A DNA stretch of 64,000 bases from Streptomyces sp. YIM 121038 (GTDB taxonomy: Bacteria > Actinomycetota > Actinomycetes > Streptomycetales > Streptomycetaceae): positions 7,562,001 through 7,626,000 of the forward strand of contig NZ_CP030771.1 of the NCBI RefSeq assembly GCF_006088715.1, given 5' to 3'. Positions 5,657-45,125 of this stretch are shown here, in pieces; the stretch's first letter is position 1, and every line of letters starts with the position of its first letter. A program made the translations under genes and the position numbers. The notes under the pieces are model-generated. The model was given only the letters and a program-made list of their open reading frames with translations. It was not told the DNA's origin and searched no databases.

Positions 5657-5708
5657 CGTGGCCGGCAGCGCAGGGCAATCCGTCGTACGCTGCGCGGTTG
5701 GAGACACC

Positions 5709-6671: not shown

Positions 6672-7080
6672 CAGGGGCGGCGACCGGGGCCCGCGACGGG
6701 GGCCGCGGCCGGGGCGCGTGCGCTATCCGGACGCGGTGCGCTATCCGGACAGGCCGTGCGCACAGCGGATCGTCGGCGCCGGAGCCCGCGCCTAACGTGG
6801 CTCTGTCGCCGGGTGGACCGGTCGCGTCGCGGGGGGCCCAGCCTTCTCCCGGGGCGGACCGTGGACGGAACCCCGGCACCTCCGGCCCGGCTCTGGTGAG
6901 CGCCGGGCCGGCTTCGGACCGGCGGGCCCGGTCGTTCCCCCTGGCATTCCCCCGTGTGCCATCGGGCCCGCCACTCCGCACGCCGTCGGGGCCCCAGCGG
7001 CCCCCTCCCGGTGGTTCGCGCCGCGCGTCGCGGTCAGACTCGACAGCACGCGGCCCGCGCACCGACCGACGGGAGACGGC
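6672..7080 (+). other. 409-bp gap between AraC and DinB-like genes
   Basis: No gene was found here. The first 80 bp hold a tandem 15-bp direct repeat. Near 6793 the sequence GCCTAACGTGGC contains a possible -10 (TAACGT) for the next gene. The remaining 280 bp or so up to the start codon show no ORF with a plausible start and no strong hairpin, so they may be a long untranslated leader. Confidence 0.5.
6718..6750. promoter_or_regulatory. Tandem 15-bp direct repeat, possible AraC operator
   Basis: Two exact copies of GTGCGCTATCCGGAC start at 6718 and 6736, an 18-bp period. They lie between the araC-type gene and the gene at 7081, just before a possible -10. Direct repeats at about two helical turns are typical AraC-family binding sites. 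The link to this regulator is inference. Confidence 0.45.
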
Positions 7081-7665
7081 ATGAGCACCGGCGACGACCA
7101 GCGGACCCTGGAGCGGCACGGCCAGGCCGTCGAGCAGTTCACCGACCGGGTGCACGCGGTCCGGCAGGACCAGTGGGACGCCCCGACGCCCTGCGCGCGC
7201 TGGACGGTCCGCGACCTCGTCCACCACCTCGTGTCCGAGCAGCTGTGGGTGGAGCCGCTCGTCCGTGACCGCGCCACCGTCGAGGAGGTCGGCGACCGCT
7301 TCGACGGCGATCTGCTCGGGCCCGACCCCGTCGCCTCCTGGGACACCGCGGCCGCGGCGTCCCGGGCCGCGCTCGGCGCGCCGGGCGCGCTCACGGGCAC
7401 CGTCCACCTCAGCTACGGCGAGAGCCCCGCGCGCGCCTACTGCGCCCAGATGACCACCGACCTGGTGGTGCACACCTGGGACCTGGCCCGCGCCATCGGC
7501 GCCGACGAGCGCCTGCCCGACGCCCTGGTCGCCGCGGCCGCGCGCGAAGTCGCCCCGTACGCGGCCGACCTGGCGCAGAGCGGCCTGTTCGCCGCGCCGG
7601 TGGAGCCGCCCCCGGGAGCGGACGCGCAGACCGAGCTCCTGTGCCTGCTCGGCCGCACCCCCTGA
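7081..7665 (+). CDS. TIGR03086-type metal-binding DinB-like protein
   Basis: A 194-residue member of the mycothiol-dependent maleylpyruvate isomerase N-terminal/DinB-like superfamily. The N-terminal four-helix bundle has the pattern PCARWTVRDLVHHLVSEQLW, where the HH pair supplies metal ligands. A second His is in DLVVHTWDLARAIG, the family's third ligand region. These proteins are small metal-binding enzymes related to mycothiol-dependent transferases; most have unknown substrates. The ATG follows a GACGGGAGACGGC ribosome site. It sits downstream of the AraC regulator and may be its target. Assignment to the family is good, function open. Confidence 0.82.
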   Translation: MSTGDDQRTLERHGQAVEQFTDRVHAVRQDQWDAPTPCARWTVRDLVHHLVSEQLWVEPLVRDRATVEEVGDRFDGDLLGPDPVASWDTAAAASRAALGAPGALTGTVHLSYGESPARAYCAQMTTDLVVHTWDLARAIGADERLPDALVAAAAREVAPYAADLAQSGLFAAPVEPPPGADAQTELLCLLGRTP

Positions 7666-7687
7666 ACCGCCGCGCCGACGCGCCTCC

Positions 7688-8125
7688 TCACCGGGGCGGG
7701 CCCGCGCCGCCGTCCGGTGCGGCGCGGCTGATGTCGGCGAGCGCGGACGCCGGGTCCTGCTCGATCGCCAGATCGCCCAGGCTCACCATGCCCACCGGCC
7801 GCCCGTCCTCCACGACCGGCAGCCTGCGCACCGCGTGGTCGCGCATCAGGCCGACCGCCGCGGCCACTTCGTCGTCGGGGCTCACCACCACCGGGTTCGG
7901 GGTGCACACGGCCTGCGCGCTGACCGTCAGCGGGTCGGCGCCCTCGGCCACGGCCCGCAGCGTGATGTCCCGGTCGGTGAGCACCCCGACCACCTGGTCG
8001 CCGTTGGCCACGACGACGTCACCGATGTCCTGGGCGCGCATCAGCTGCGCCGCCTCGACCAGGGAGGCGTCGGGCCTGACCGCGACGACTCCCGGTGTCA
8101 TGACCTGCCTCACGTACTCCGCCAT
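7688..8125 (-). CDS. Tandem CBS-domain protein
   Basis: 145 residues forming two CBS motifs back to back: VRQVMTPGVVAVRPDASLVEAAQLM with VGVLTDRDI, then AQAVCTPNPVVVSPDDEVAAAVGLM with VGMVSLGDLA. CBS pairs (Bateman modules) bind adenosine nucleotides and usually regulate partner proteins; this one has no fused effector domain. An excellent SD (GGAGG) precedes the ATG at 8125, and a SigB-like promoter lies about 48-72 bp upstream, suggesting induction by general stress. The next reverse-strand gene upstream (8212-10017) encodes a TPP enzyme, and a SigB-family sigma gene is nearby. Confidence 0.88.
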   Translation of the reverse strand: MAEYVRQVMTPGVVAVRPDASLVEAAQLMRAQDIGDVVVANGDQVVGVLTDRDITLRAVAEGADPLTVSAQAVCTPNPVVVSPDDEVAAAVGLMRDHAVRRLPVVEDGRPVGMVSLGDLAIEQDPASALADISRAAPDGGAGPPR

Positions 8126-8172
8126 GTCCGCAGAGACCTCCTTCGTCCGTCGGCGATGCGACCCCGCCCGCA

Positions 8173-8197
8173 GTACCCCTGTACGGGCCACCCATGC
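8173..8197 (-). promoter_or_regulatory. SigB-like promoter for the CBS gene
   Basis: Read on the reverse strand the sequence is GCAT-N15-GGGTAC. This fits the Streptomyces SigB consensus GNNT-N14-16-GGGTAC/T exactly. It lies 48 bp before the CBS start codon. Confidence 0.6.
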
Positions 8198-8211
8198 CGC
8201 CCGGCCCGGCG

Positions 8212-10017
8212 CTACCGGCGCTTGCCGCCGCCCGGCAGGAAGTCCTGGACCTTCGCCTTCAGGCCCTGCTTCACCACCGCGCCCCGGTCGGCGTCGCCCT
8301 TGAGCAGGGCCGTCGCCGTCGACTCCAGCTGCTCCCAGGAGGCGTGCGGCGGAATCGGCGGCACCGCGGGGTCGGTCAGGAACTCGACGACGGCGGGGCC
8401 CTCCGCGTCGAGGGCCGCGCGCCAGCCCGCGGTCACGTCCTCGGGCTTGTCCACACGGATCCCCGTGAGCCCGATCGAGCGCGCGAAGTCCGCGTACGGC
8501 ACGTCCGGCAGGGACTGCGAGGGCTCGAACGACGGGGCGCCGCCCATCGCCCGCAGCTCCCACGTCACCTGGTTGAGGTCGCGGTTGTTCCACACCCCGA
8601 CGACGAGCCGCGGATCGTCCCAGCGGTGCCGGTACTTGGCCGCGGTGATCAGCTCGGCCATGCCGTTCATCTGCATCGCGCCGTCCCCGACGAGCGCGAT
8701 CACCGGCCGGTTGGGGTGCGCGAACTTCGCGCCGATCGCGTACGGCACGCCGCAGCCCATCGTCGCGAGCGTGCCGGACAGCGAGGCCCGCATGTCGCCG
8801 CGCAGCGTCAGATGGCGTGCGAACCAGTTGGCCGTGGAGCCCGAGTCGGAGGTGATGATCGCGTCGGCGGGCAGGAGCGGGTCCAGGGCCCGGGCCACGT
8901 ACTCCGGGTTGACGGGGTCGGCGGCCAGCTGCGCGCGGCGGTCGAGGACGCCGTGCCACCGCTCCACGTTCGCCCGCACCGCGGCGTGCCACTCGCGCCC
9001 GGCCGCCGCGCGCTCCTCGGAGACCAGCGGGATCAGCCGGCGCAGGGTGGCGCGCGCGTCGCCCACCAGGTTCACCTCGTAGGGGTAGCGCATGCCGATC
9101 ATGTGCGGGTCGATGTCGATCTGCACCGCGCGGACCTTGCCGTACTCCGGCAGGAACTGCGCGTACGGGAAGCTGGAGCCGATCGTCAGGAGCGTGTCGC
9201 AGTCGCGCATCAGCTCGTACGAGGGGCGGGTGCCGAGCAGCCCGATCGCGCCCGTGACGTACGGCAGTTCGTCGCTCAGGGCGTCCTTGCCGAGCAGCGC
9301 CTTGGCGACGCCCGCGCCGAGCAGCTCCGCGAGCTCCTCGACCTCGGCCCGCGCGCCCGCCGCGCCCTGCCCGATCAGGACCGCCGCCCTGGTGCCGGAG
9401 TTCAGCACGTCCGCGGCCCGCTCCAGGGCGGTCGGCGAGGGCAGCGCCGTCCAGGCGCTGCGGTCCAGGCTGGAGGGCACCATCTTGAACGCGTGCGGCG
9501 GCGGGCGGTAGTCGAGCTCCTGGACGTCACCGGGGACGATCACGGCGGTGGGGCAGCGGCGCGCGTACGCGGTGCGGATGGCGCGGTCCAGGACGTTCGG
9601 GAGCTGCTCGGGCACCGTCACGGTCTCCACGAAGTCGGAGGCCACGTCCTTGAACAGCGTGTGCAGGTCGACCTCCTGCTGGTACGAGCCGCCCATCGCC
9701 GAGCGGTGCGTCTGGCCGACCAGGGCGAGCACCGGCACGTGGTCCAGCTTCGCGTCGTACAGGCCGTTCAGGAGGTGGATGGCGCCGGGCCCCGAGGTCG
9801 CCGCGCACACCCCGAGCCGCCGGCCGAACTTGGCATAGCCGACCGCTTCGAACGCGGCCATCTCCTCGTGCCGGGACTGGAGGAAACGCGGCCGGTCGTC
9901 GGCGCGGCCCCAGGCCGCGAGGAGGCCGTTGATGCCGTCCCCGGGGTAGCCGAAGACGCAGTCGACGTCCCAGGCCCGCAGGCGCTGCAGAATGTGATCG
10001 GCGACCTTCGTGCTCAT
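8212..10017 (-). CDS. TPP-dependent pyruvate oxidase/acetolactate synthase-like enzyme
   Basis: 601 residues with the three-domain TPP enzyme fold. The N-terminal PYR domain has the catalytic Glu in RHEEMAAFEAVGYAKF and the CAATSGPGAIHLLNG loop. A central domain covers about residues 190-330. The C-terminal PP domain has the TPP/Mg motif GDGAMQMN...NNRDLNQV. The GYPGDGINGL start and SGTLATMGCGVPYAIGAK match the PoxB-like pyruvate dehydrogenase (quinone)/pyruvate oxidase group rather than anabolic acetolactate synthase. The likely reaction is oxidative decarboxylation of pyruvate to acetate, possibly in stationary phase or stress. ATG at 10017 has a GGAAGGA ribosome site. Confidence 0.85.
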   Translation of the reverse strand: MSTKVADHILQRLRAWDVDCVFGYPGDGINGLLAAWGRADDRPRFLQSRHEEMAAFEAVGYAKFGRRLGVCAATSGPGAIHLLNGLYDAKLDHVPVLALVGQTHRSAMGGSYQQEVDLHTLFKDVASDFVETVTVPEQLPNVLDRAIRTAYARRCPTAVIVPGDVQELDYRPPPHAFKMVPSSLDRSAWTALPSPTALERAADVLNSGTRAAVLIGQGAAGARAEVEELAELLGAGVAKALLGKDALSDELPYVTGAIGLLGTRPSYELMRDCDTLLTIGSSFPYAQFLPEYGKVRAVQIDIDPHMIGMRYPYEVNLVGDARATLRRLIPLVSEERAAAGREWHAAVRANVERWHGVLDRRAQLAADPVNPEYVARALDPLLPADAIITSDSGSTANWFARHLTLRGDMRASLSGTLATMGCGVPYAIGAKFAHPNRPVIALVGDGAMQMNGMAELITAAKYRHRWDDPRLVVGVWNNRDLNQVTWELRAMGGAPSFEPSQSLPDVPYADFARSIGLTGIRVDKPEDVTAGWRAALDAEGPAVVEFLTDPAVPPIPPHASWEQLESTATALLKGDADRGAVVKQGLKAKVQDFLPGGGKRR

Positions 10018-33487: not shown

Positions 33488-34453
33488 ATGACGGCGTACG
33501 AGACCAAGGCCGGTGGCCACGACCACGACCACAGCTCCGGCCGCAGCTCAGGCCACGGCTCCGGGCACGGGCATGGCCACGGCCACGGCGACTACGACAT
33601 CGACTGGGCCGAGATGGCCCCCGTCCTGGAGCAGAACGCCGAGGTCACGGCCCCGCTGTACCGGCAGGTCGCCGCGTGGCTGCGGGGGCTGCGCACGGTG
33701 GCCGCCGAGCCGGCCCTGATCGTCGACGCGGGCAGCGGCCCGGGCGTCGTCACCAGCCTGCTCGCCCAGGCGTTCCCCGAGGCCGAGGTGGTCGCGGCGG
33801 ACCCGGAGCGGGCCCTGCTGGAGCGGGCCGAGGCGCGCGCCGCCCGGCTCGGCCTCGCGGACCGGGTGCGCGCGCACCGCGCGGAACTCCCCGACGGCCT
33901 GGGCGAGCTGCCGCCCGCCGGCCTGATCTGGGCGGCACGGTCCGTGCACCACGTGGGCGACCAGGTCGCCGCGCTCACCGCGCTCGGCGAGCGGCTCGCG
34001 CCGGGCGGCGCGCTCGCGGTCCTCGAAGGCGGTCTGCCGCCGCGCAGCCTGCCGCGCGACATCGGCGTGGGCCGCCCCGGCCTGCAGGCCCGCCTCGACG
34101 CGGCCAACGAGGAGTGGTTCGCGCGCATGCGCGCGTCCCTGCCCGGCGCCACCGGGGCCACGGAGGACTGGGCCGCGCTGCTCACGGCGGCGGGCCTGCG
34201 CCACACGGCGACCCGCACGTTCCTGCTCGACCTGCCCGCGCCCCTGGACGAGCGCGCGCGGGCGCACGTCATCGACACCTTCGAGCGCTACCGCGGCCTC
34301 GCGGCCGCCGAGGGGCCCGAGGCGCTCGCCGCGGACGACGTGACCGTCCTGAACCGCCTGCTCGACCCCGAGGACGAGCTGAGCCTGCACCGCCGCCGCG
34401 ACGTGTTCCTGCTCGTGGCGCACACGGTGCACGTGGCGGTGAAGGAGGGCTGA
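33488..34453 (+). CDS. SAM-dependent methyltransferase with histidine-rich N-terminus
   Basis: 321 residues. Residues 9-35 form a His/Gly/Asp/Ser-rich segment (HDHDHSS, then a run of HG pairs), typical of Zn, Ni or Co binding or storage sequences. A class I methyltransferase core follows: ALIVDAGSGPGVVTSLLAQAFP, VVAADPERALLERAEARA, LIWAARSVHHVGDQ and LAPGGALAVLEGGLPPRSLP. The C-terminus is helical. The GGCGGAACG sequence acts as a weak SD before the ATG. The acceptor is unknown; the metal-binding leader suggests a metal-linked role or metal-dependent assembly, which is inference. Confidence 0.8.
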   Translation: MTAYETKAGGHDHDHSSGRSSGHGSGHGHGHGHGDYDIDWAEMAPVLEQNAEVTAPLYRQVAAWLRGLRTVAAEPALIVDAGSGPGVVTSLLAQAFPEAEVVAADPERALLERAEARAARLGLADRVRAHRAELPDGLGELPPAGLIWAARSVHHVGDQVAALTALGERLAPGGALAVLEGGLPPRSLPRDIGVGRPGLQARLDAANEEWFARMRASLPGATGATEDWAALLTAAGLRHTATRTFLLDLPAPLDERARAHVIDTFERYRGLAAAEGPEALAADDVTVLNRLLDPEDELSLHRRRDVFLLVAHTVHVAVKEG

Positions 34454-34512: not shown

Positions 34513-35223
34513 CTACGACCGCAGCTCGTCGAGCCGCGCCAGCGCGTCCCGCACGGCCTCCCGCTCGTCCTCATCGAGTGCGCCGAGCCCGATCCCGGCG
34601 GCCCGCTCCAGGAGGCGCTCCGCCAGTGCGTCGTCGCCCTGCCGCTGGGCGATGTCCCCGCGCAGCACGAGCAGCCGCAGGTGCTGCGCGGGCGTGGGCC
34701 GCTCGTCCTCCAGGGCGAGCGCCCGGTCGATGACCTTGGCGGCGCCCTCCAGGTCCTCCTTGGAGTCGACGAAGAGGTCGGCCATGTGCAGCGCCCGCGC
34801 GAAGGTCTCCTTCGGCGCGGGCCGGTGGCTCTGGTCCTCGTCGAGCTGCTGCCCGACGCGGATGCTGTTGCCCGCGGGGTCGGTCATCAGGAACTGCCGC
34901 ACGCCGTACGACATGTCCTTCAGCGGCCCGATCCTGGGCAGCCCCCGCCGCGGCACCTTCCCGTACGCGGCCTTGAGCCCGGCCCGGAACGCCGCGTACA
35001 GCGCGTCCACGTCGTCGGTGAGGACGTAGCACCCCGAGTACGACGCGGCGGGGTCGTACTGCTTCATGCCGAAGAACTGGAGCTCCACGGGGCCGCGTTC
35101 GACGACGGCGTACGCGTACGGGCTCTTCTGGAGGTAGGTCGTCTCGAAGCCGAGGGCGGTGTAGAAGTCGACGACCGGCTGGACGGACCGGCAGGGGAGC
35201 AGCGGGATGGTTTTGTCAGCCAT
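34513..35223 (-). CDS. VOC (glyoxalase/bleomycin-resistance fold) protein with TPR-like C-terminus
   Basis: 236 residues. The first 125 form a vicinal oxygen chelate domain: IPLLPCRSVQPVVDFYTALGFETTYL, VERGPVELQFFGMK, SGCYVLTDDVDALYAAF and FLMTDPAGNSIRVGQ. The last 100 residues are helical and repeat-like (ALHMADLFVDSKEDLEGAAKVIDRALALEDE; LLVLRGDIAQRQGDDALAERLLERAAGIG), resembling TPR units. VOC domains bind metals and small molecules or sequester antibiotics; the extra TPR-like half suggests protein contacts. It is divergent from the conflict-system operon with about 120 bp between them. Confidence 0.8.
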   Translation of the reverse strand: MADKTIPLLPCRSVQPVVDFYTALGFETTYLQKSPYAYAVVERGPVELQFFGMKQYDPAASYSGCYVLTDDVDALYAAFRAGLKAAYGKVPRRGLPRIGPLKDMSYGVRQFLMTDPAGNSIRVGQQLDEDQSHRPAPKETFARALHMADLFVDSKEDLEGAAKVIDRALALEDERPTPAQHLRLLVLRGDIAQRQGDDALAERLLERAAGIGLGALDEDEREAVRDALARLDELRS

Positions 35224-35344: not shown

Positions 35345-35701
35345 ATGAGGGAGCTGATGCGCTGGGAGTCCGACGACGGGCCCGTCGTCGTGGAGATGGA
35401 CTCGCGGGACGTGGGCTACCGGTCCGTCTCGCGCCGGGACGACGACGGGGTCCGGGAGGTCGAGGGCCGCTTCGAGTCGGCCCTCGGCAATGTGCGCGGC
35501 GCCGCGCTCTCGGCGCTCCGCACGTTCCGGGAGCAGGCGCTCGACCCGGACGGGATCGAGCTGGAGTTCGGCGTGAAGCTGAGCGTCGCCGCGGGCGCCG
35601 TCATCGCGAAGACCGCGGCCGAGGGGCATCTGACGGTCAAGCTGACGTGGTCGAAAGGGGGCGCCCCAGGGGGCGCGGAAGGCGCGGCGCGGGGCGAATA
35701 A
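35345..35701 (+). CDS. Trypsin-co-occurring domain protein (Trypco1/CU044_2847 type)
   Basis: 118 residues: a small beta-rich domain starting RWESDDGPVVVEMDSRDVGYRSVSR and continuing AALSALRTFREQALDPDGIELEFGVKLSVAAGAVIAKTAAEGHLTVKLTW. This is the Trypco1 (CU044_2847-like) pattern, a domain named for its steady association with trypsin-like proteases in NTP-dependent conflict systems. It may act as a substrate, regulator or effector of the protease. The ATG lacks an SD; TACGTT ends 7 nt before it, so the message could be leaderless. The stop overlaps the protease ATG by one base (TAATG). Confidence 0.8.
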   Translation: MRELMRWESDDGPVVVEMDSRDVGYRSVSRRDDDGVREVEGRFESALGNVRGAALSALRTFREQALDPDGIELEFGVKLSVAAGAVIAKTAAEGHLTVKLTWSKGGAPGGAEGAARGE

Positions 35702-37425
35702 TGGCGGACATGCACTGGCGTGCCCGCATCCACGCGGTCGGCGGCGGCCCGCCGTTGGGAGCGGGCGTGCTGGTCGACGGCGAGCGGGTGATCACCTGCG
35801 CCCACGTCGTCGACGGCCACGCCGAGGTCCGCGTGGCGCTGCCCGGGGACGGCGGCGAGGAACCGGCGCGCGTCGTGTGGACGGGCGGCTGGCGCGCCCT
35901 CGGCGACCCCGGCGACATCGCGGTGCTCGCGCTCGACCGCCCGGTCCGCGCGGCGCCCTGCGCCCTCGCCCCCCTCGGCGCGCTGCGCCCGGACCGCGGC
36001 CGCCCCGCCCACGTGCTGCGCGCCCTCGGTTTCCCCGAGGGCCACGAGCGCGACGGCACGTACGTCACGGTGACCACCAGCGCCGACCGGCAACTGCACG
36101 GCGAATGGCTGGAGCTGGACGTCGACAAGGCCCATCTGCGCCGCCTCGACGAGGGGTTCAGCGGCGCCGGGGTGTACGACCCGGTGAGCGGCGAGGTCGT
36201 CGGCATCGTCACCGACGCGGAGCTCAGGGACGAGCGCGGCGGCACCCAGGGCCGCATGCTGCCCCTCGACGCCGTGCGCCGCCACTGGGAGGGCCTGGAC
36301 GACCTGCTGCCCCTCGACTGGATGGAGCCCGCCCCGCGCCGCGAGCTGCGGGCCGTCCTCGACGGCGGCGAACTGGCGCCCGCCGCCGTGGCGTTGGCGG
36401 TGCGCCAGGCCTTCCCGACGTTCCTGCGGGAGCTGCCCGCCTTCCGGTCGGCCTGGCACGCCGTGCGGTACGTCGCCGAGGAGCTGACCGGCGAGGGCCG
36501 CGTCGAACGGCTGCTGCGCGAGCTGCGGGACCACGCTCCCGGCGGCGTCGCCGCCCGCCTCACCGCCTGGACGCGGCGCTGGCAGCCGGACGACGCCGGG
36601 CGCGGCCCGGCCGCGGCGGCCGTGCGCACCGGGTCCCTCATGGTCCGGGTGGAGCCGATGACGAAGGCCAAGAGCCTGGACCTGTCCGTGTGCGCCCTCG
36701 TCGACGGGGTCCCGGTCGGCCGCGCGGGGCCCGTCCGCGTCCGTCCCCAGCAGCTGCGGACGAAGGTCGAGGCGCTGCTCGCCGCGCAGGTCGGCGCCGT
36801 CGCCGACTTCGACTGGATCGCGGAGTTCGTCGTGCCGCAGGGACTCATGGACGAGCCCTTCGAGGAGTGGCTGCTGCACGAGCCCGGCGCGGCCCGCCCC
36901 CGGGCGCTGCGCGCCGTGCCCGTCGTGGTCCGCCACACGGACCGCCTCAAACCCCTCATGGTCTGCCGCTTCACCCGCGAGCGCTGGGAGACCGTGCGCG
37001 CCCGCGGCGAGACCCGGCCCAAGCCCGTCGCCTGCTCCCTGACGTGGAACTACCAGGAGTTCTACGACTGGCTCGCCGGCCAGGAGCAGCTGTGCGCCCT
37101 CGCCTACGCGGCGACCCCCGGCGACGCCTGGCTGTCGGCGGCGCTCGACATCGGCATGCCCATCATGCTGTGGCGGCGGCGCGACTGCGGCGGCGGGGGC
37201 CACGCGGACTGTGCGTCCGCCGCCTTCCTCGACCGCCTCACCCGGGCGGTGTCCGGGCTCGACCCCGACCGGCTCCCGTACGAGGTCATGAAGTTGCGCA
37301 AGGAGGCCCGCTCCCCGGAGCGGGGCGGCGACGGCCACTGCGGACACCGCCTCGCGCTGTTCTGGGACGACCCGGAGCGCAGGCCCGACCCGCCGCTGGC
37401 CATGGGGAACAAGGAGAGGGGCTGA
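35701..37425 (+). CDS. Trypsin-like protease fused to VMAP (vWA-MoxR-associated protein) domains
   Basis: 574 residues. The N-terminal 190 are a trypsin-like peptidase with an intact triad: ITCAHVVDG (His35), GDIAVLALD (Asp72) and EGFSGAGVYD (Ser154, with GFSGAG replacing the usual GDSGG). There is no signal peptide, so it works in the cytoplasm. A helical middle region (about 220-290) and the VMAP C-terminal domain follow, the latter with VGAVADFDWIAEFVVPQGLMDEPFEEWLL, RAVPVVVRHTDRLK and DIGMPIMLWRRRDC. VMAPs are thought to link protease effectors to MoxR and vWA partners. It overlaps the genes before and after in a compact operon. Confidence 0.85.
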   Translation: MADMHWRARIHAVGGGPPLGAGVLVDGERVITCAHVVDGHAEVRVALPGDGGEEPARVVWTGGWRALGDPGDIAVLALDRPVRAAPCALAPLGALRPDRGRPAHVLRALGFPEGHERDGTYVTVTTSADRQLHGEWLELDVDKAHLRRLDEGFSGAGVYDPVSGEVVGIVTDAELRDERGGTQGRMLPLDAVRRHWEGLDDLLPLDWMEPAPRRELRAVLDGGELAPAAVALAVRQAFPTFLRELPAFRSAWHAVRYVAEELTGEGRVERLLRELRDHAPGGVAARLTAWTRRWQPDDAGRGPAAAAVRTGSLMVRVEPMTKAKSLDLSVCALVDGVPVGRAGPVRVRPQQLRTKVEALLAAQVGAVADFDWIAEFVVPQGLMDEPFEEWLLHEPGAARPRALRAVPVVVRHTDRLKPLMVCRFTRERWETVRARGETRPKPVACSLTWNYQEFYDWLAGQEQLCALAYAATPGDAWLSAALDIGMPIMLWRRRDCGGGGHADCASAAFLDRLTRAVSGLDPDRLPYEVMKLRKEARSPERGGDGHCGHRLALFWDDPERRPDPPLAMGNKERG

Positions 37426-37426
37426 G

Positions 37427-38473
37427 GTGACCGCACACCCGTCGCGCGCCTGGCACGTCTACACCGGCGGCCGCACCCCGCACGACCGCGTCGACCTGCT
37501 GCCCGACCCGCCGCCCTGGCGGCGCTTCACCGGCGGCCCGCCGCTGCCCGCCCCGCCCGGCGACAGCGGCAACCGGCACGCGGCCGTCAGCTACCGCCCC
37601 GGCGCCGACGCCGTCCGCCAGGTCAACGCCGCCCTCTATCTGCGCAGGCCGCTCCTGGTCACCGGCGCCCCCGGCACCGGCAAGTCGTCCCTCGCCTACG
37701 CCGTCGCCCACGAACTCGGCCTCGGCAAGGTCCTGCACTGGCCCATCACCAGCCGCGTCACCCTGCGCGAAGGGCTGTACGCGTACGACCCGCTGACGCG
37801 CCTGTACGCCGCCGGGCGCGCCCGCGACGGGGCGGCGGGCCCCGAGCGGGCCGACGACATCGGCGACTACCTGCGCCTCGGCCCGCTCGGCACCGCCCTG
37901 CTGCCCTACGCCCGCCCCCGCGTGCTGCTCGTCGACGAGATCGACAAGAGCGACATCGACCTGCCGAACGACCTCCTCACCATCTTCGAGAAGGGGTCGT
38001 ACGAACTCGTCGAGCTGGCCCGGCGCGCCGAGCCCACCGCCGAGGTGATGACGGCCGACAGCACCACGGAGCGGGTGGAGATCCGCGACGGCACCGTCAC
38101 CTGCCGGGCCTTCCCCTTCGTGGTCATGACCAGCAACGGCGAGCGCGAGTTCCCGCCCGCGTTCCTGCGCCGCTGCGTGACCGTCGACCTGAAGCAGCCC
38201 GCCACGGTCGAGGAGCTGACCGCGATCGTCGGCGAACACCTCGGCGGGGTCGTGGGCGACGCCTCGGGCGCCCTGCCCGAGGGCGCGCACGACGTCATCC
38301 GGCGCTTCTTCGACCGGCGCGGCGGCGGTCTGCTCGCCAACGACCAGCTTCTGAACGCCGTCTACATGTGCCACCACGCGGCCTTCAGCGAACCGCCCGG
38401 AAACGTGGCCGAGCTGGCCGACCAGGTCGCCCCGTACCTGAGCAGCGAGGCGACGGACCCCGATGACGCTTGA
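37427..38473 (+). CDS. MoxR-type AAA+ ATPase of the conflict operon
   Basis: 348 residues of a AAA+ ATPase. Walker A is TGAPGTGKSS (about 79-87), Walker B VLLVDEIDKSDIDLPNDLL (near 167), sensor 1 FVVMTSNGEREFPPAFLRRC with arginine-finger residues, and a C-terminal small domain (LTAIVGEHLGG to QLLNAVYMCHHAAF). It has the MoxR insertions around the helix-2 loop and probably forms a ring that remodels or activates its partners. GTG at 37427 sits one base after the protease stop, with AAGGAG upstream. Its 3' end overlaps the next gene by 11 nt. Confidence 0.88.
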   Translation: MTAHPSRAWHVYTGGRTPHDRVDLLPDPPPWRRFTGGPPLPAPPGDSGNRHAAVSYRPGADAVRQVNAALYLRRPLLVTGAPGTGKSSLAYAVAHELGLGKVLHWPITSRVTLREGLYAYDPLTRLYAAGRARDGAAGPERADDIGDYLRLGPLGTALLPYARPRVLLVDEIDKSDIDLPNDLLTIFEKGSYELVELARRAEPTAEVMTADSTTERVEIRDGTVTCRAFPFVVMTSNGEREFPPAFLRRCVTVDLKQPATVEELTAIVGEHLGGVVGDASGALPEGAHDVIRRFFDRRGGGLLANDQLLNAVYMCHHAAFSEPPGNVAELADQVAPYLSSEATDPDDA

Positions 38474-41400
38474 CCGGCTGCGCGCCACGCTGGAGGCCCT
38501 CGGCCCGCCGGTCACGCCCCTCGAACTCGCGGAGATGCTGTGGCTCGCCCGCACGCTGCCCGCGGCACCCGAGAGCCCCGAGAGCACGGACGGCCCCCGG
38601 CCGCGTCCGGGCGGGCCCCGCCTGTCGCCGGACGCGCCCGCGGCGGGCGGCGCGGACGGGCGGGCGCCCGGGCCGCGCCCTGGGCCGGAGCACCCCGAGG
38701 GGGCGCCCGCGGCCGGGGACGGCCCGGAGGCGGCGGCCGCGGAGCCCGGCGGGAGGCCCCTGCACCTGCCGCGCGGCCCCGCGGGGCCCGGCACGGACGC
38801 CGACGACGTGCTCGTGCCCGCCCCGCAGGCGCTGCGCCACGAACTCGCCCTCCAGCGCGCCCTGCGCCCCCTCAAGCGGCGCGTGCCCGACGCCCGCCAC
38901 CGCGTCCTGGACGAGGACGCCACCGCCGCCCGCGCGGCCGAGGACGCCACCGCGGCCCGCGCCGCCGGGCGCGCCGGGCGCCGCCCCTGGGTGCCCGTCC
39001 TGGTGCCCGCCGACTGCCGCCCGCTGCGCCTGGCCCTCGTCGTCGACACCGGCTCCGCGATGGCCGTGTGGCGGCCGCTGGCCGGGGAGTTGCGGGCCGC
39101 GCTCCAGCGCACGGGCGCCTTCCGCGACGTCCGCCTCTGGTACGTCGCCGACCTCGGCACCCGCGTCGGCCTGCGGCCCGCGCCCGGCCGCCCGGCCGTG
39201 CCCCCCGCCGCCGCGGTCGACCCCACGGGCCGTCAGCTCACCCTGGTCCTCAGCGACTGCTCCGGCCCCCACTGGTGGGCCGGGCGCGCCGGACAGGCCC
39301 TGTACGCCTGGGCGCGGCGCGGGCCCACAGCCGTCCTCCAGCCGCTGCCCGAACGCCTCTGGCGGCGCACCGCCGCGCCCACCGTGCCCGGCAGGGCGAC
39401 CGCCGCGCGGGCCCACGCCCCGAACACCGCGCTCCGCTTCACCCCGCACCACGGCCGCGCCCGCCGCCCCGCCGGGGCCCTGCCCGTGCCCGTGCTCGAA
39501 CTCGCGCCGGAGTGGCTCGCCGACTGGGCCGCCCTGGTCGCGGCGGTGGGCGACCGTCCCCGCGACACCGCCGTCACCTACGCGGCCGCCGCCCCGCCCG
39601 TCCTCGCCGAGCCCCTCGCGGAGGAGGGCGACCTGCCGATCGCCGAGCGCGTCCTGCGCTTCCAGCTCGCCGCGTCCCGCACGGCCGCCGACCTCGCCGC
39701 GCACGTGGCCCTCTCGGTGCCCGCGCTCCCCGTGATGCGCCTCATCCAGCAGCGCGTCACCCCCGGCTCCCGGCCGAGCGACCTCGCCGAGGTCCTGCTC
39801 AGCGGCCTCCTGGAACCCGTCGACCTGGAGCGCGGCCGCTACGACTTCGCCCCCGGCGCCCGCGCCGCCCTCATCGAGACCCTGCCGCGCCCCGAGTCCC
39901 TGGCCGTCACCGACCTCCTCACCCGCCTCGGCGAGGAGATCGAGTCCCGCGCGGGCTCGGCCGCCCGCTCCTTCCGCGCGGTGGTCCCCGTGGCGGACGG
40001 CCGGGGCACCCGTCACCTGGGCGCGGCGGAGCAGCCGTTCGCGCTGGTCAGCGAGGAGGCGCTGGAGGTGCTCCGGGGGGCGGCGATCCGGGTGGCCCAG
40101 CGGCCGGCGGCCCCTGCCCCGGTCATGAGCGTGCGCACCACGTCGCTGGAGATATACGACGAGGAAGTGACCGAGTGGTTCCTCGCGTCCGGCGGGGTGT
40201 CGGCTCCGCCGGGCCTGACCAATCTTCCTCCCGCGAAGCCGTTCGTGGGCCGGGCCGCGGCCCTCCAGCGCCTGGACGACGACCTGTTGGCTCCACGCCC
40301 GTGGACGGACGGCCCGCACGCGGTGGTCGTGTCGGGAATCGGAGGATCGGGCAAGTCGGCGCTGGCCGAGTGGTGGGGAGCGAGCGACGCCGTCCGCGCG
40401 GCACTGAACCCGGTGTGGTGGCTGCGCGCGTCCTCCCCGGCCGAGGGGCTCGCGGAGCTGGCCCGCGCCCTGCGGCCCGCGTCCTCGGACGTGACGCGGG
40501 AGGAGGCGAGCGAGTGGGCCGTCGGCTGGCTGGCCGCACACCACGACTGGCTGCTGATCCTCGACGACGCGGAGAACCCGGCCGACGTCCGTGCCCTGCT
40601 GGAGCGCCTGGGCACGGGCGGCCGGGTCCTGGTCACCAGCAGACGGGCCGACGGCTGGGAAGGCGTGGGGCCTGTTCTGGAGCTGACGGGCATGGAGCCC
40701 GCTGAGGCCGTCGAGCTGCTCCGCGCCCACCTGGGGGCGGACGTCCTGGAGGGCGACGCGCGGAGTGTCGCCGAGGCGGTCGGCCGCCTCCCGCTCGCCC
40801 TGGCGGTGGCCGTCCAGTACATGGTGAGGGAAGGAGTGTCCCCCGCCGAGTACCTGGTGTTCCTGGAGCGCACCCGGGCCGGGCGGAGCGAGGACCGCCC
40901 CGACGTCGCAGGTACCGTCCGCGCGGTCCTGCGTGTCGTGGACGAGACGACGGCACGCCGCGTCATGAGCGTCCTCGCCTGGCTGGCCCCCGAGCCGGTC
41001 CCGCTGAGCGTGCTGTCCGGCATCGGCGGTACCGCCGCGCTGAACCATGCCGCCGAAACATTGGCGTGGCTCGGCCTCATCGACCGTGACGGCGACACGC
41101 TGCGCATCCACCCGCTGGTGCACGAGGTCCTCAACGAGCCGGACGAGGACGGCTCGTGGAGCAGCCCCGCGGCCCTGCGGGCGGCACGGTCCGATGCCAC
41201 GGCCTGTCTCGACGGCGCGCTGCCGGGCGACGCCGAGGATCCCGCGACCTGGCCGCGCTGGCAGGCCCTGCTGCCGCACATCGACCACCTGGCGGAGTCG
41301 GTCGCGCCCGAGGACGACGACGTGGACTTCGCGCACGTCCTGGAGGCGGCGGCGGAGTTCGTCATCGGGCAGGGCCGGGCGGAGCGTGCCGTCGCCCTGC

Positions 41401-42914
41401 TGGAGCGCGCGGAGGCGGGCAGGGAGCGCGGCCCAGGGATCGGTTCGCCGGAGAGCCTGCGGACGACACGGCTGCTGGTGAACGCGCTGCGGCGGGCGGG
41501 CCGCCTGCCGGAAGCGCTGCGGCGGTGCGAGACCGCGCGCTGGCTGCCCGTCCCGAACGACCCCGGAGCCCTCCTGGACGTCCTCCTGCTGCGGGTCGAA
41601 CTCGCCTCGCTCAAGAACGAGGTGGGAGAGACGGGCGCGGCGAAGGAGCAGTTCGCGAAGTTGCGCACGTCGGCGTTCCGCGCCCTCGACAGGGAGGCGT
41701 CCCCCCACCTGGTCCTGCCCTGTGCGGCCATCGCGGACCTGGCGCTGAGCCTGGGGGACCCGCACGGGGCGGTGCGGCTGTACGAGACGACCCTGGCCGC
41801 CGCGCGCCGGGAGCTGGGGGAGGACCACCCGGACACCCTCGCCGTCCGGGGCCGCCTCGCCGCCGCCCTGTACGCGACGGGGGAGCGGGGCCGAGGATCC
41901 CGCGAGGGCACGCGCGTGCTCGTCGACCTCACCCGTGTCTTCGGTGCGGACCACCCCCGGGTGATCAGCGCCCTCAGCGACGTCGCCCACGCCCTGGAGG
42001 GTGCGGAGGAGACGCTGCCCGACGCCGTCAACGCGTACCGCGAGGCCCTGCGGCGCAGCCGGACGGCGCGCGGCGAGACGCACCCGGAGACCCAGCGCCT
42101 GTGGAGCCACCTGGTCGACGTCGAGGCGCGGGCGGGGAACCCGGAGAGCGCGGTCGAGGCGGCGAAGGAGTGGCGGTCCGTGGTGGTCGAGGCGCTCGGC
42201 CCCCGGCACCCCGCCACCCTGCGCGCGTCCGCGTGCCTGGCCCACGTGTACGGGGCGAACGGCGCGTGGAGCCTGGCCATTCCGCTGTACGAGCGCACGC
42301 TGGACCTCCAGCGCGAGGTGCTCGGCGAGGACGCCCCGGAGACCTGGGAGTCCTACGACCGCCTCGCCGCGCTCTTCGCGCAGGTGGGCGACGTGGACCG
42401 GGCGCTGCCTCTGTACGAACGGGCGCTGCGTGTACGGCGGGAGACCCTGGGGGACGAGCACGAGGAGACCCTGGCCGCGCTCGACCGCACGGCCATCGCG
42501 CTGCTCGGCGCCGGACGCCACGACAAGGCCCTCGCGCTGCTCGACCGGGCGCTGGCCCTGCGCCACCGGGCGCTCGGTGACGGGCACCCCGACGTGCTCA
42601 GGACGTACGGCTATCTGGGATACGCGCACCTGGAGGCGGGGGACCCCGCGCGGGCCGTCGCGACGTACCGCGCCGCGCTGCACGGCTGCGCCGAGCAGTT
42701 CGGGGCGGCGGACCCCCGCACCGTGGCGATGACCAGGAACCTCGTCGACGCGCAGCTCTCCGGAGGCGATCGCGCCGGGGCCGGCGAGGTCCTGGAACAC
42801 GCGGTGGCCGCCCTCGCGCCCGCGCTCGGCGCGGACCACCGCGACGTCCTCGCCCTCAAGGACGAACTGGCCCGTCTGCGCCCCCGGGGGAGAGGGGGCG
42901 CGGACGGGCCGTGA
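38463..42914 (+). CDS. SAV_2336-type vWA / NB-ARC ATPase / TPR giant protein (STAND-like sensor)
   Basis: 1483 residues in four parts. The start LDRLRATLEALGPPVTPLELAEMLWLARTLP matches the SAV_2336 N-terminal domain. After a Pro/Gly-rich linker and a 27-bp coding duplication, a vWA-like domain appears (LRLALVVDTGSAMAVW ... LTLVLSDCSGPHWW); its metal site is DTGSA rather than DxSxS. At about 620 an NB-ARC NTPase begins with FVGRAAALQRL, P-loop SGIGGSGKS and Walker B WLLILDDAE, then a winged helix. From about 960 to 1470 many TPR units follow (HPDTLAVRGRLAAALYATGE type). It looks like a target-sensing switch fused to the vWA partner of the MoxR. Confidence 0.85.
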   Translation: MTLDRLRATLEALGPPVTPLELAEMLWLARTLPAAPESPESTDGPRPRPGGPRLSPDAPAAGGADGRAPGPRPGPEHPEGAPAAGDGPEAAAAEPGGRPLHLPRGPAGPGTDADDVLVPAPQALRHELALQRALRPLKRRVPDARHRVLDEDATAARAAEDATAARAAGRAGRRPWVPVLVPADCRPLRLALVVDTGSAMAVWRPLAGELRAALQRTGAFRDVRLWYVADLGTRVGLRPAPGRPAVPPAAAVDPTGRQLTLVLSDCSGPHWWAGRAGQALYAWARRGPTAVLQPLPERLWRRTAAPTVPGRATAARAHAPNTALRFTPHHGRARRPAGALPVPVLELAPEWLADWAALVAAVGDRPRDTAVTYAAAAPPVLAEPLAEEGDLPIAERVLRFQLAASRTAADLAAHVALSVPALPVMRLIQQRVTPGSRPSDLAEVLLSGLLEPVDLERGRYDFAPGARAALIETLPRPESLAVTDLLTRLGEEIESRAGSAARSFRAVVPVADGRGTRHLGAAEQPFALVSEEALEVLRGAAIRVAQRPAAPAPVMSVRTTSLEIYDEEVTEWFLASGGVSAPPGLTNLPPAKPFVGRAAALQRLDDDLLAPRPWTDGPHAVVVSGIGGSGKSALAEWWGASDAVRAALNPVWWLRASSPAEGLAELARALRPASSDVTREEASEWAVGWLAAHHDWLLILDDAENPADVRALLERLGTGGRVLVTSRRADGWEGVGPVLELTGMEPAEAVELLRAHLGADVLEGDARSVAEAVGRLPLALAVAVQYMVREGVSPAEYLVFLERTRAGRSEDRPDVAGTVRAVLRVVDETTARRVMSVLAWLAPEPVPLSVLSGIGGTAALNHAAETLAWLGLIDRDGDTLRIHPLVHEVLNEPDEDGSWSSPAALRAARSDATACLDGALPGDAEDPATWPRWQALLPHIDHLAESVAPEDDDVDFAHVLEAAAEFVIGQGRAERAVALLERAEAGRERGPGIGSPESLRTTRLLVNALRRAGRLPEALRRCETARWLPVPNDPGALLDVLLLRVELASLKNEVGETGAAKEQFAKLRTSAFRALDREASPHLVLPCAAIADLALSLGDPHGAVRLYETTLAAARRELGEDHPDTLAVRGRLAAALYATGERGRGSREGTRVLVDLTRVFGADHPRVISALSDVAHALEGAEETLPDAVNAYREALRRSRTARGETHPETQRLWSHLVDVEARAGNPESAVEAAKEWRSVVVEALGPRHPATLRASACLAHVYGANGAWSLAIPLYERTLDLQREVLGEDAPETWESYDRLAALFAQVGDVDRALPLYERALRVRRETLGDEHEETLAALDRTAIALLGAGRHDKALALLDRALALRHRALGDGHPDVLRTYGYLGYAHLEAGDPARAVATYRAALHGCAEQFGAADPRTVAMTRNLVDAQLSGGDRAGAGEVLEHAVAALAPALGADHRDVLALKDELARLRPRGRGGADGP
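38913..38966. repeat. 27-bp in-frame duplication in the vWA/NB-ARC gene
   Basis: Units at 38913-38939 and 38940-38966 both encode EDATAARAA in the linker between the SAV_2336-type start and the vWA-like domain. Confidence 0.88.
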
Positions 42915-42929: not shown

Positions 42930-43763
42930 TCAGGCGACGTGGAAGTCCGCCGGGTCGGGGCCGAGCCGCCGGTCCTCGTTCAGGGCGCTGATCGCCGCCA
43001 TGTCCTCCGGGTCGAGCTCGAAGTCGAACACCGCGATGTTCTCGGCGATGCGGGACGGGGTCACCGACTTGGGGATGACCACGTTGCCCAGCTGGAGGTG
43101 CCAGCGCAGGACGACCTGGGCCGGGGTGCGGCCGTGCTTCTGGGCGATCGCGACGATCGCCGGGACCTCCAGGAGGCCCTTGCCCTGGCCGAGCGGCGAC
43201 CAGGCCTCGGTGGCGATGCCCTGCTCCGCGTGGTACTCGCGGGCGGCGCGCTGCTGGAGGTGCGGGTGCAGCTCGATCTGGTTCACGGCCGGGATCACCG
43301 ACGTGGCGTCGATGAGGCGCTCCAGGTGCTCCGGCAGGAAGTTGGAGACGCCGATCGACTTGGCGCGGCCCTCCGCGTGGATCTTCTCGAAGGCCTTGTA
43401 CGTGTCGATGTACGTGTCCTTGTCCGGCATCGGCCAGTGGATCAGATACAGGTCCACGTAGTCGAGGCCGAGCTTGTCCAGGGACGCGTCGAACGCGCGG
43501 AGCGTCGCGTCGTGGCCCTGCGCGCTGTTCCAGAGCTTCGTCGTGACGAAGAGCTCCTCGCGGGCGACGCCCGAGGCCGCGATGGCCTTGCCGGTGCCCG
43601 TCTCGTTCTCGTAGACGGCCGCCGTGTCGATGCTGCGGTACCCGGATTCCAGGGCCGTCGCGACCGCCCGCTCCGCCTCGTCGTCCGGCACCTGCCAGAC
43701 GCCGAAGCCCAGTTGGGGCATCTCGATGCCGTTGTTCAGGATGATCGGGGGGACCTTGCTCAC
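42930..43763 (-). CDS. Aldo/keto reductase
   Basis: 277 residues of the aldo/keto reductase superfamily, NADPH-dependent carbonyl reduction in the cytoplasm. Signature blocks: GFGVWQVPDDEAERAVATALESGYRSIDTAAVYENETGTGKAI (catalytic Asp and Tyr), Lys in VTTKLWN, His in LYLIHWPMP, and the C-terminal NADPH-binding VIPKSVTPSRIAENIAVFDFEL. It is closest to the bacterial 2,5-diketo-gluconate reductase-like group (AKR5). GTG at 43763 begins the conserved region; its SD (GAGAG) is modest. A TTGACC box lies about 45 bp upstream. It is convergent with the conflict operon and divergent from pqqA. Confidence 0.92.
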   Translation of the reverse strand: MSKVPPIILNNGIEMPQLGFGVWQVPDDEAERAVATALESGYRSIDTAAVYENETGTGKAIAASGVAREELFVTTKLWNSAQGHDATLRAFDASLDKLGLDYVDLYLIHWPMPDKDTYIDTYKAFEKIHAEGRAKSIGVSNFLPEHLERLIDATSVIPAVNQIELHPHLQQRAAREYHAEQGIATEAWSPLGQGKGLLEVPAIVAIAQKHGRTPAQVVLRWHLQLGNVVIPKSVTPSRIAENIAVFDFELDPEDMAAISALNEDRRLGPDPADFHVA

Positions 43764-44069
43764 GAGCTCTCGATCCTTATGCGTCGTCGGGTGGTACGTC
43801 CATGGTCAACGATCAGGAGCCGTGCCGCATTCCTGGCGGGGGATCCGGGACGCACAGCGGCAGGTACGGGTCGTGGCGGCCTTTGGAGAATGGCCGGATA
43901 TAGCTCCGACCTCATCGGTCCGAACCATTGACCGCGTCCCGTCATGCCGCGACTCTGTTGCACGTCACTGAACGCAGGCCATCCATGTGAACACCCTACG
44001 CACACCGGTGATGGTGTATCCCAGTGGCTCCTGAATCCCCCACTTCTTCAGGAAAGGCAGGACACGCCC
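43764..44069. other. 306-bp intergenic region between aldo/keto reductase and pqqA
   Basis: No gene is seen. It must hold divergent promoters. On the reverse strand TTGACC (43804-43809 complement) precedes the reductase start. On the forward strand TTGACC at 43928 with GACTCT 17 bp later is a weak promoter candidate for pqqA. Short inverted repeats ACACC-N6-GGTGT and CCTGAA-N11-TTCAGG sit 20-70 bp before pqqA and could form leader hairpins. Confidence 0.4.
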
Positions 44070-44201
44070 ATGAACAGCCACGACACGCAGACGTCGGAGC
44101 TTCCCCCGGGCCCGGCCGACCGCACGGCCTGGCAGACTCCCGAGTACACGGTCGTCGAGACCTCGCTCGAGGTCACCGCGTACCGCCTCGCCGACCGGTA
44201 A
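44070..44201 (+). CDS. pqqA: PQQ precursor peptide PqqA
   Basis: 43 residues. The substrate motif Glu-Val-Thr-Ala-Tyr (Glu34 to Tyr38) near the C-terminus is the Glu/Tyr pair that PqqE crosslinks and that becomes pyrroloquinoline quinone. The peptide is longer than most PqqA (about 22-39 residues) because of a Ser/Pro-rich leader before WQTPEYTVVETSL. An AGGAAAGGCAGG ribosome site precedes the ATG. pqqB starts 9 nt after the stop, and pqqCDE follow in order. No pqqF-type peptidase gene is nearby, so the peptide must be trimmed by an enzyme encoded elsewhere. Confidence 0.93.
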   Translation: MNSHDTQTSELPPGPADRTAWQTPEYTVVETSLEVTAYRLADR

Positions 44202-44210
44202 GCACGGACC

Positions 44211-45125
44211 GTGCTGCTCCAGGTGCTCGGCACCGCGGCGGGCGGCGGGCTGCCCCAGTGGAACTGCGCGTGCCCCGGCTGTTCCGGGGCACGCGCCCAC
44301 CCCGAGCGCCGCCGCCGCCACGCGTCGCTCGCCGTCCGCGCCAGCCCGGGCCGCTGGTACCTCGTCAACGCCACCCCCGACATCGGCGAGCAGATCGAGG
44401 GGTGCCCCGATCTGCTGCCCGACCCCGCGGCCGACGTCCGCCGCTCCCCGCTCGCCGGAGTCCTGCTCACCGACGCGGAGCTCGACCACACCCTCGGCAT
44501 CGCCCGGCTGCGGGAGGCCCGCGATGGCGTGGCCGTGTGCGCCACCGCGCCGGTGCGGTACGCCGTCCGCGAGCGGCTCGGCCTCGACGCCGTGCTCGGC
44601 CCCTACACCACCGTCCGCTGGCGCGAGCTGACCGCCGCGGCCGTGCCCCTGGAGGAGGGGGCCGAGGTCGCCGTGAGCGCGGTGCCCGTTTCGGCCAAGC
44701 GCCCGCGCTACGCGGCCGGCGCCACCGGGCCCGGGGCCGAGGGGGACGCCTGGTCCGTCGCCCTGCTCCTGCGGGACACCGGGACCGGCGCCACCGCCCT
44801 GTACGCACCGGCCGTCGCCGCCTGGACCGACGCCTTCGAGGAGGCCGCCCGCGCGGCGGACCTCGTCCTCGTCGACGGCACCTTCTGGGACGACGAGGAG
44901 CCGCTGCGGGCCGGGTTCTCCCGCACCACCGCCACCGGGATGGGCCATCTGCCGATCACCGGTCCGGGTGGCACCGCGCACCGGCTCGCACGCCTGCCGG
45001 GCCGCTGTCTGTACACGCATCTGAACAATACGAACCCCCTCGGGGACCCCGGCGCCGAGCAGCACAAGCAGCTCGCGGAGCGGGGACTCGACGTCGCGGC
45101 GGAGCGGATGGTGATCGAGCTGTGA
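44211..45125 (+). CDS. pqqB: PQQ biosynthesis protein PqqB
   Basis: 304 residues of the PqqB metallo-beta-lactamase-like family, proposed to hydroxylate the tyrosine of the crosslinked intermediate. The start VLGTAAGGGLPQWNCACPGC carries the Cys-x-Cys-x-x-Cys zinc site typical of PqqB. ASPGRWYLVNATPDIGEQI, LLTDAELDHTLGIARLRE (the degenerate metal motif), GTFWDDEEP and GHLPITG are all family landmarks. GTG at 44211 gives the conserved N-terminus. It overlaps pqqC by GTGA. Confidence 0.93.
   Translation: MLLQVLGTAAGGGLPQWNCACPGCSGARAHPERRRRHASLAVRASPGRWYLVNATPDIGEQIEGCPDLLPDPAADVRRSPLAGVLLTDAELDHTLGIARLREARDGVAVCATAPVRYAVRERLGLDAVLGPYTTVRWRELTAAAVPLEEGAEVAVSAVPVSAKRPRYAAGATGPGAEGDAWSVALLLRDTGTGATALYAPAVAAWTDAFEEAARAADLVLVDGTFWDDEEPLRAGFSRTTATGMGHLPITGPGGTAHRLARLPGRCLYTHLNNTNPLGDPGAEQHKQLAERGLDVAAERMVIEL

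Follow-up and report, generated by a model that had tools for sequence, protein, structure and literature searches.

A VMAP-type ternary operon of Streptomyces sp. YIM 121038 with a trypsin-like VMAP protein and a vWA module joined to an NB-ARC-TPR protein

VMAP ternary conflict systems, as set out in the available text of Kaur et al. 2020 (PMC7159879), have a strict VMAP-MoxR-vWA gene order, a VMAP-C domain, a variable VMAP-M domain, characteristic N-terminal motifs in MoxR and two aspartates in the vWA domain; Trypco1 and Trypco2 are often encoded next to trypsin-type VMAPs. The systems occur widely in multicellular bacteria, where they are reported to be concentrated (PMC7159879), and the sensing and the killing subunit are assigned differently by two published models. 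Kaur et al. take VMAP-M as sensor and the vWA C terminus as effector, whereas the available part of a second account (PMC10907252) assigns sensing to the vWA protein and the effector role to the VMAP peptidase. No published experiment on any VMAP system was found in the literature searched, the full texts of which were covered in part; tested proteins of related kinds include, in the available texts, the trypsin-like LypA and LypB, the latter like an NLR (nucleotide-binding, leucine-rich repeat) protein, which act in host lysis (PMC13236601), and the trypsin-like proteases of Hachiman/AVAST protease-nuclease pairs, which are defence-type systems (PMC12799240). Here we describe a four-gene operon in 64,000 nucleotides of the Streptomyces sp. 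YIM 121038 genome (contig NZ_CP030771.1, positions 7,562,001 to 7,626,000; the window, to which coordinates refer), the domains, gene order and MoxR motifs of which make it almost certainly a VMAP ternary conflict system.

Identity and composition of the operon

Gene products were searched against Pfam and NCBIfam models with their cut-offs (Table 1). VMAP-C, the VMAP-MoxR-vWA order, the MoxR motifs, the two vWA aspartates and Trypco1 are all present, in agreement with an initial annotation, made from the sequence alone, which had called the locus a vWA-MoxR-VMAP-type system. The families named there for checking (Trypco1, VMAP-C, MoxR and SAV_2336/NB-ARC) have matches, those of the MoxR product being to AAA models and those of gene 4 to SAV_2336 and NB-ARC-TPR models, the Pfam NB-ARC model itself reaching only 20.6 bits on gene 4, under its cut-off of 23.5. 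The four genes, which would be expected to stay together in other genomes, do so in 4/4 orthologous loci, namely L011, L012 and two more loci detected by a pattern scan with gene 2 of species genomes, a scan that detects close relatives only: Streptomyces flavofungini JCM 4753 (L018) and Streptomyces sp. NRRL B-1347 (L019).

The coordinates, order and strand of the four stop-on-start genes are likewise as annotated, almost without gaps and with all frames open. The Trypco1 stop codon TAA and the protease ATG have one base in common (TAATG, from 35699), a single base separates the protease TGA (37423-37425) from the MoxR GTG (37427), and there is an 11-base overlap between the gene 4 ATG (38463) and the MoxR stop (38473). 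Simple promoter and terminator scans found nothing.

Gene 2 had been proposed to encode an intracellular trypsin-VMAP protein with intact His35, Asp72 and Ser154; the triad is present, and is invariant in 7/7 aligned proteins (that of the window, four orthologues and two sister systems). Trypsin has an aspartate six residues before its catalytic serine. The corresponding residue of the window protease is Arg148, so, to judge from the sequence, trypsin-type specificity should not be assumed.

The suggestion that Trypco1 is the substrate or inhibitor of the protease, for which its position alone argues, is not supported. Trypco1 is 73-93% identical in the four orthologues, a conservation at least equal to that of the protease, and three of the four Trypco1 genes found in the source genome adjoin trypsin-VMAPs; the neighbour of the fourth is not a trypsin gene but one that starts like a caspase (Pfam C14 at 13.8 bits, below the cut-off of 21.4; the H and C were assigned by eye) and also has an NTPase region and WD40 repeats. 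Although a single case, this arrangement suits an adaptor more than it does a substrate or inhibitor specific to trypsin, and the most likely role of Trypco1 is that of a structural adaptor within the protease complex. The locus concerned (L140, positions 5072-9866, at about 1.447 Mb of the source genome) pairs its Trypco1 gene (82.3 bits) with a protein of 1473 residues; none of the VMAP-C profile matches of the source genome falls there, and the pair is possibly a one-protein protease-NLR system.

Gene 3 encodes a MoxR-type AAA+ ATPase, as annotated; its best NCBIfam match, MadB, scores 49.6 bits, far under the cut-off of 475. The Walker A (GAPGTGKS) and Walker B (VLLVDE) motifs are kept in the window and the four orthologues, and the N-terminal motifs of the five copies, WHVYTG and PPWRRF in the window and L019 and WQIYSG and PPWRTF in L018, L011 and L012, fit the published WxhapG and PsWRxa. 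At E <= 0.001, and with weak matches counted, 348 of 392 genus genomes have a match to this MoxR. The kind of system was already predicted by Kaur et al. 2020 (PMC7159879), and MoxR relatives are present in most of the genus genomes searched; it is the variant that is uncommon.

Gene 4, initially described as a vWA-like/NB-ARC/TPR giant, indeed has a SAV_2336-type N terminus followed by an NF040586-type NB-ARC-TPR half. The predicted vWA aspartates, in VVDTG/VADTG and in LSDCSG, are found in 5/5 copies, and the extension ahead of the vWA domain, in the region covered by NF041121, has an ExxExxW motif (PLELAEMLWL) similar to the published [D/E]xxx[D/E]xxxa, though differing in spacing. Sister loci were taken as 21 of the 22 best MoxR matches outside the source genome and the orthologues (20 loci and L013; G242 was passed over), a choice by MoxR similarity that biases the sample to this clade. 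In 20 loci (18 of these, L013 and L015 of the source genome) homology to gene 4 ends at residues 505-547, and sister vWA genes align up to residues 505-553 at most. The best NB-ARC matches in 295 genus genomes, orthologues aside, are genes elsewhere, which align to gene 4 from residues 564-584 on (11 loci examined); no MoxR or trypsin-VMAP match was found at these 11 loci, the stretches of 7 of which reach only 1.5 kb past the match. On these two boundaries, gene 4 reads as the fusion of a complete NB-ARC-TPR protein to a vWA module of VMAP type. A Pfam scan of gene 4 found no recognised toxic domain fused to the NB-ARC-TPR half, so that, NTPases apart, no enzyme but the protease is recognised.

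The automatic name of gene 4, FxSxx-COOH system TPR protein, was rejected as a function, there being no mod_HExxH gene near the operon. The only mod_HExxH match of the genome (TIGR04267) and its 849-bit NF040586 match stand together at 5.58 Mb, 2 Mb away, so the name would mislead; tblastn with the mod_HExxH product encoded there gave no match to the 64-kb window or to any of the four orthologous loci. In that region (L014, 5.572-5.592 Mb) lies a further VMAP system, in which the VMAP and a separate trypsin protein each bear EAD2. A single open frame there has homology to both vWA and NB-ARC-TPR, and the system adjoins the mod_HExxH gene, an arrangement near one described in the available text of Kaur et al. 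(PMC7159879). Separately, an NF040586-like match is mirrored about 9.3-11.5 kb from both ends of contigs C1 (10.1 Mb) and C2 of genome G000, the chromosome and second replicon of which seem to have common terminal inverted repeats.

Table 1. Features of the operon and its immediate flanks (positions in the window; res, residues)
Feature	Position	Strand or orientation	Evidence
Trypco1 small protein, 118 residues	35345..35701	+	PF19493 86.3 bits (cut-off 24.6); NF041216 74.2 bits (cut-off 23)
VMAP protein (gene 2), 574 residues: trypsin-like peptidase (res 20-169), VMAP-M8 (200-294), VMAP-C (338-558)	35701..37425	+	Trypsin_2 PF13365 49.8 bits (over cut-off); VMAP-M8 PF19969 74.6 bits (cut-off 27); VMAP-C PF20028 125.6 bits (cut-off 27)
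MoxR-type AAA+ ATPase (gene 3), 348 residues	37427..38473	+	AAA PF00004 27.9 bits and AAA_5 PF07728 27.3 bits, both over cut-off
Gene 4 (38463-42914), res 1-539: N-terminal extension, linker, vWA module with two predicted aspartates of metal ion-dependent adhesion site type	38463..40079	+	SAV_2336_NTERM NF041121 389.5 bits (res 20-496)
Gene 4, res 540-1483: linker and complete NB-ARC-TPR (NLR-like) protein; fastest-diverging part	40080..42914	+	FxSxx_TPR NF040586 339.8 bits (cut-off 300); TPR_12 165.4 bits
Divergent gene, one side of operon	34513-35223	divergent	
Aldo/keto reductase (AKR)-like gene	42930-43763	convergent	named from sequence, no family search

Divergence among the five syntenic copies

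The main difference among the five copies lies in the NB-ARC-TPR half of gene 4. Compared with the window, L018, L011 and L012 are 76-77% identical across the vWA core, 85-86% across the AAA part, 56-64% across VMAP-M8 and 62-68% across the trypsin and VMAP-C segments. The figures fall to 38-44% for the NB-ARC core, 35-37% for the segment that follows, 31-35% for the first TPR part and 34-43% for the remainder (the gene 4 start of L012 is mispicked, so that its first 100-170 residues or so are not usable in these figures). The nearest orthologue, that of NRRL B-1347, has 91% in the vWA core, 90% in VMAP-M8, 94% in the AAA part and 89-91% in trypsin/VMAP-C, as against 71% in the NB-ARC core, 64% in the first TPR part and 79-82% in the later TPRs.

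Silent sites behave similarly. For NB-ARC the proportion of synonymous differences (pS) is above its value for the three upstream genes in 10/10 pairs (Fisher p 3.8e-10 to 2.3e-4; the pairs overlap and are not independent). The ratio of nonsynonymous to synonymous differences (pN/pS) is 0.25-0.54 in the three upstream genes (10 pairs) and, when distant copies are compared, reaches about 1 in the first TPR part, a value that saturation may explain and that we do not take as a sign of positive selection. At fourfold sites of unchanged residues, which are the least misalignment-prone and were tested in three pairs, NB-ARC exceeds the core for the window and NRRL B-1347 (48/181, 0.265, versus 110/867, 0.127; p 1e-5) and for L011 and L012 (49/127, 0.386, versus 156/840, 0.186; p 1e-6), the excess being weaker for the window and L018 (0.484 versus 0.363, p 0.03). 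The later TPRs have no fourfold excess between the window and NRRL B-1347 (p 0.56), and L011 and L012 differ mildly outside the NB-ARC-TPR half as well, Trypco1 being higher (p 0.04) and MoxR lower (p 0.008).

The raised neutral divergence points to exchange of the NB-ARC-TPR half with diverged alleles; a local mutation-rate effect may also be its source. Any donors would be of the same clade, since in a tree of 29 rows (the five operon copies, 23 chosen NB-ARC domains of the genus and one long-branch NF040586-family row) the operon copies form one clade (100/99) with the branching ((window, L019), (L018, (L011, L012))). Their separation from the 23 other domains gives no support to repeated replacement of the NB-ARC-TPR half from outside.

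A possible mechanism and its alternatives

In NLR biology generally, the repeats sense and the NB-ARC domain oligomerises. The reading that we favour, tentatively and with slightly less than even confidence, is that the NB-ARC-TPR half of the vWA protein would be a ligand-sensing, ATP-gated sensor which changes shape on recognition. The vWA domain would then pass a peptide to the MoxR ring, the two acting as a relay; ATP hydrolysis by MoxR would remodel the vWA-VMAP complex via VMAP-C; and the trypsin-like domain of the VMAP protein, freed from inhibition, would cut cell proteins as the executioner, so stopping growth or killing the infected hyphal compartment. A protease effector and a TPR-NB-ARC sensor had both been put forward in the initial annotation; the pair of roles stays plausible and has some support from the divergence pattern, in which the faster-changing NLR-like part may show which piece recognises the threat. 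That divergence is strongest in the NB-ARC-TPR half and not in VMAP-M8, together with the lack of a recognised toxic domain, favours the assignment of sensing to the vWA protein and killing to the protease, as proposed in the available part of PMC10907252. Among 20 sister systems, too, the vWA C terminus is less conserved than VMAP-M in 177/190 pairs (the pairs are not independent, mixed architectures with automatic starts were aligned together and the segments follow L052).

By contrast, the published proposal of Kaur et al., so far as its available text goes (PMC7159879), would have the VMAP protein sense the invader through VMAP-M8, MoxR-vWA restructure the complex and the trypsin cut the vWA protein, the freed NB-ARC-TPR effector then oligomerising. 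Two divergent linkers of gene 4 (residues 41-170 and 501-590) could be the sites of such cutting, and in the comparison of 20 sister systems, with the limits just given, VMAP-M is less conserved than trypsin in 189/190 pairs. In the present operon, however, VMAP-M8 is, on the identities given above, hardly more variable than trypsin and VMAP-C, and the NB-ARC-TPR half has no recognised fused toxic domain to be freed, so we consider this order of events unlikely here, if still a serious contender.

Several observations weigh against an NB-ARC-TPR sensor acting through a protease. In the same sister comparison VMAP-M is less conserved than VMAP-C in 180/190 pairs, which fits sensing by the VMAP protein and keeps the view of Kaur et al. 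alive; rapid change is also in keeping with an effector that is itself targeted, as argued in the available text of that work (PMC7159879). Divergence in gene 4 extends to the linker at residues 501-590 (48-56% in L018, L011 and L012). PADLOC gave best scores of only 19.3 bits (protease, RT-Protease_XI), 19.4 bits (ATPase, IetA) and 11.1 bits (gene 4), and none for Trypco1. AlphaFold models of the trypsin-VMAP protein and Trypco1, built from three-sequence alignments, are poor (mean predicted local distance difference test scores of 46.6 and 47.2, respectively), the VMAP-M8 stretch (about 211-290), modelled as all-helical, being their sole partly confident part. Finally, the GLPL-type NB-ARC motif is missing from L018 and the Walker B of L019 has DG, so gating by ATP may not hold for every copy. 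Such altered motifs would also suit a decaying or non-functional operon, but with frames open in the window and four orthologues, the triad and MoxR motifs kept and the three upstream genes having the pN/pS values given above, decay is very improbable.

The distribution of the operon bears on a further alternative. The source genome (11.1 Mb, two contigs) has five VMAP-C matches, four of them over the cut-off. VMAP-M8 is found in 4/295 genus genomes, the source genome included, and in 1/396 genomes drawn across the phylum, that one being the source genome itself, a rarity that depends on the cut-off (the L052 sister protein has 24.7 bits versus 27) and, in the 295-genome count, on the scoring of at most 16 candidates per genome. 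All four orthologous loci have the neighbourhood of the window, with methyltransferase-like genes upstream and AKR and pqqB downstream. In the fourth genome with VMAP-M8 (G217, L013) these flanking genes are missing, and the sister system there is a more distant one. Two of seven pqqB loci from other genomes have AKR beside pqqB, both without the operon (L091, L092); the other five have neither AKR nor operon in the stretch examined. The operon is therefore accessory, yet has one address wherever found. A tblastn search of 72,556 plasmid records with gene 2 gave no match; two phage records, annotated ClpA, match MoxR over 58% at 41%, and one viral contig matches residues 20-88 of gene 2 only.

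It may be that the operon serves a host programme and not immunity, i.e. developmental cell death, a stress response or hyphal allorecognition, the NB-ARC-TPR alleles then serving to mark self. The single chromosomal neighbourhood of the five syntenic copies, the plasmid result, the allelic style of NB-ARC-TPR divergence and the concentration of VMAP systems in multicellular bacteria noted at the outset are consistent with such a role, but the accessory nature of the operon and the occurrence of VMAP-M8 in so few genus genomes are not, and we regard it as rather improbable.

A more specific form of the favoured mechanism, with an NB-ARC-TPR sensor and a protease executioner, is an apoptosome-like two-protein switch, in which a sensor diversified allelically by recombination at one address drives an AAA+/vWA relay that unleashes an intracellular serine protease. 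This is speculative and doubtful; if true, recognition in VMAP systems generally would fall to the vWA C terminus, and Trypco1 would be a general adaptor that serves executioners of both the serine- and the cysteine-protease type. The five syntenic operons, with their well conserved protease, MoxR and vWA core, offer a clean test of whether the NB-ARC-TPR half sets specificity.

Within the flanks, pqqA/pqqB-like genes, named by eye, lie at 43944-45125, just past the AKR-like gene adjoining the operon, and the methyltransferase-like protein (33488-34453, also by eye) has a histidine-rich start, HDHDHSSGRSSGHGSGHGHGHGHGD.

Comparison with known systems

With the classical VMAP ternary system, as described in the available text of PMC7159879, the operon has in common the VMAP-MoxR-vWA order, VMAP-C, a VMAP-M domain, the MoxR motifs and Trypco1 beside a trypsin-VMAP. 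In that description, the supplementary tables of which lie outside the comparison, a vWA-fused AP-ATPase-TPR protein occurs with a peptide-processing unit (RxD or acidic peptide), whereas none was found near the operon, where the aimed search covered the mod_HExxH gene only. No description of the combination of Trypco1 and trypsin with a vWA-fused NB-ARC-TPR protein was found in the literature searched, supplementary tables aside.

The sister Trypco1/trypsin VMAP systems of the genus (for example L052, L062 and L015 of the source genome) share Trypco1, trypsin-VMAP, the vWA module and a MoxR that is 56-59% identical in its aligned part; more widely, Trypco1, the trypsin part and MoxR are present by tblastn in 20/20 sister loci and the VMAP-C part in 19/20, L066 having no match. 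The difference lies in the vWA C terminus, which in 6/6 scanned sister proteins has kinase-like, SARP/BTAD and/or HAD domains (in L052 BTAD only, 24.0 bits versus 22.1; in L016, scanned alongside these six, a kinase match is just under the cut-off). NB-ARC was found by tblastn in 0/20 sister loci with a vWA match (18 loci, L013 and L015), two further loci stopping before vWA.

The NB-ARC-TPR half resembles the FxSxx-COOH system TPR protein (NF040586), though in an operon with no mod_HExxH gene nearby. LypABC/CARD-NLR (PMC13236601), the main text of which has no occurrence of VMAP, MoxR or vWA in a term search, is alike in its manner of working, with a trypsin-like peptidase and an NLR-like ATPase, and membership is not claimed. 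In the Thiohalocapsa VMAP systems diversified by a retroelement, as presented in the available part of PMC10907252, the diversified module is likewise on the vWA subunit and the trypsin on the VMAP protein, the module being a C-type lectin altered by the retroelement there and an NB-ARC-TPR protein here.

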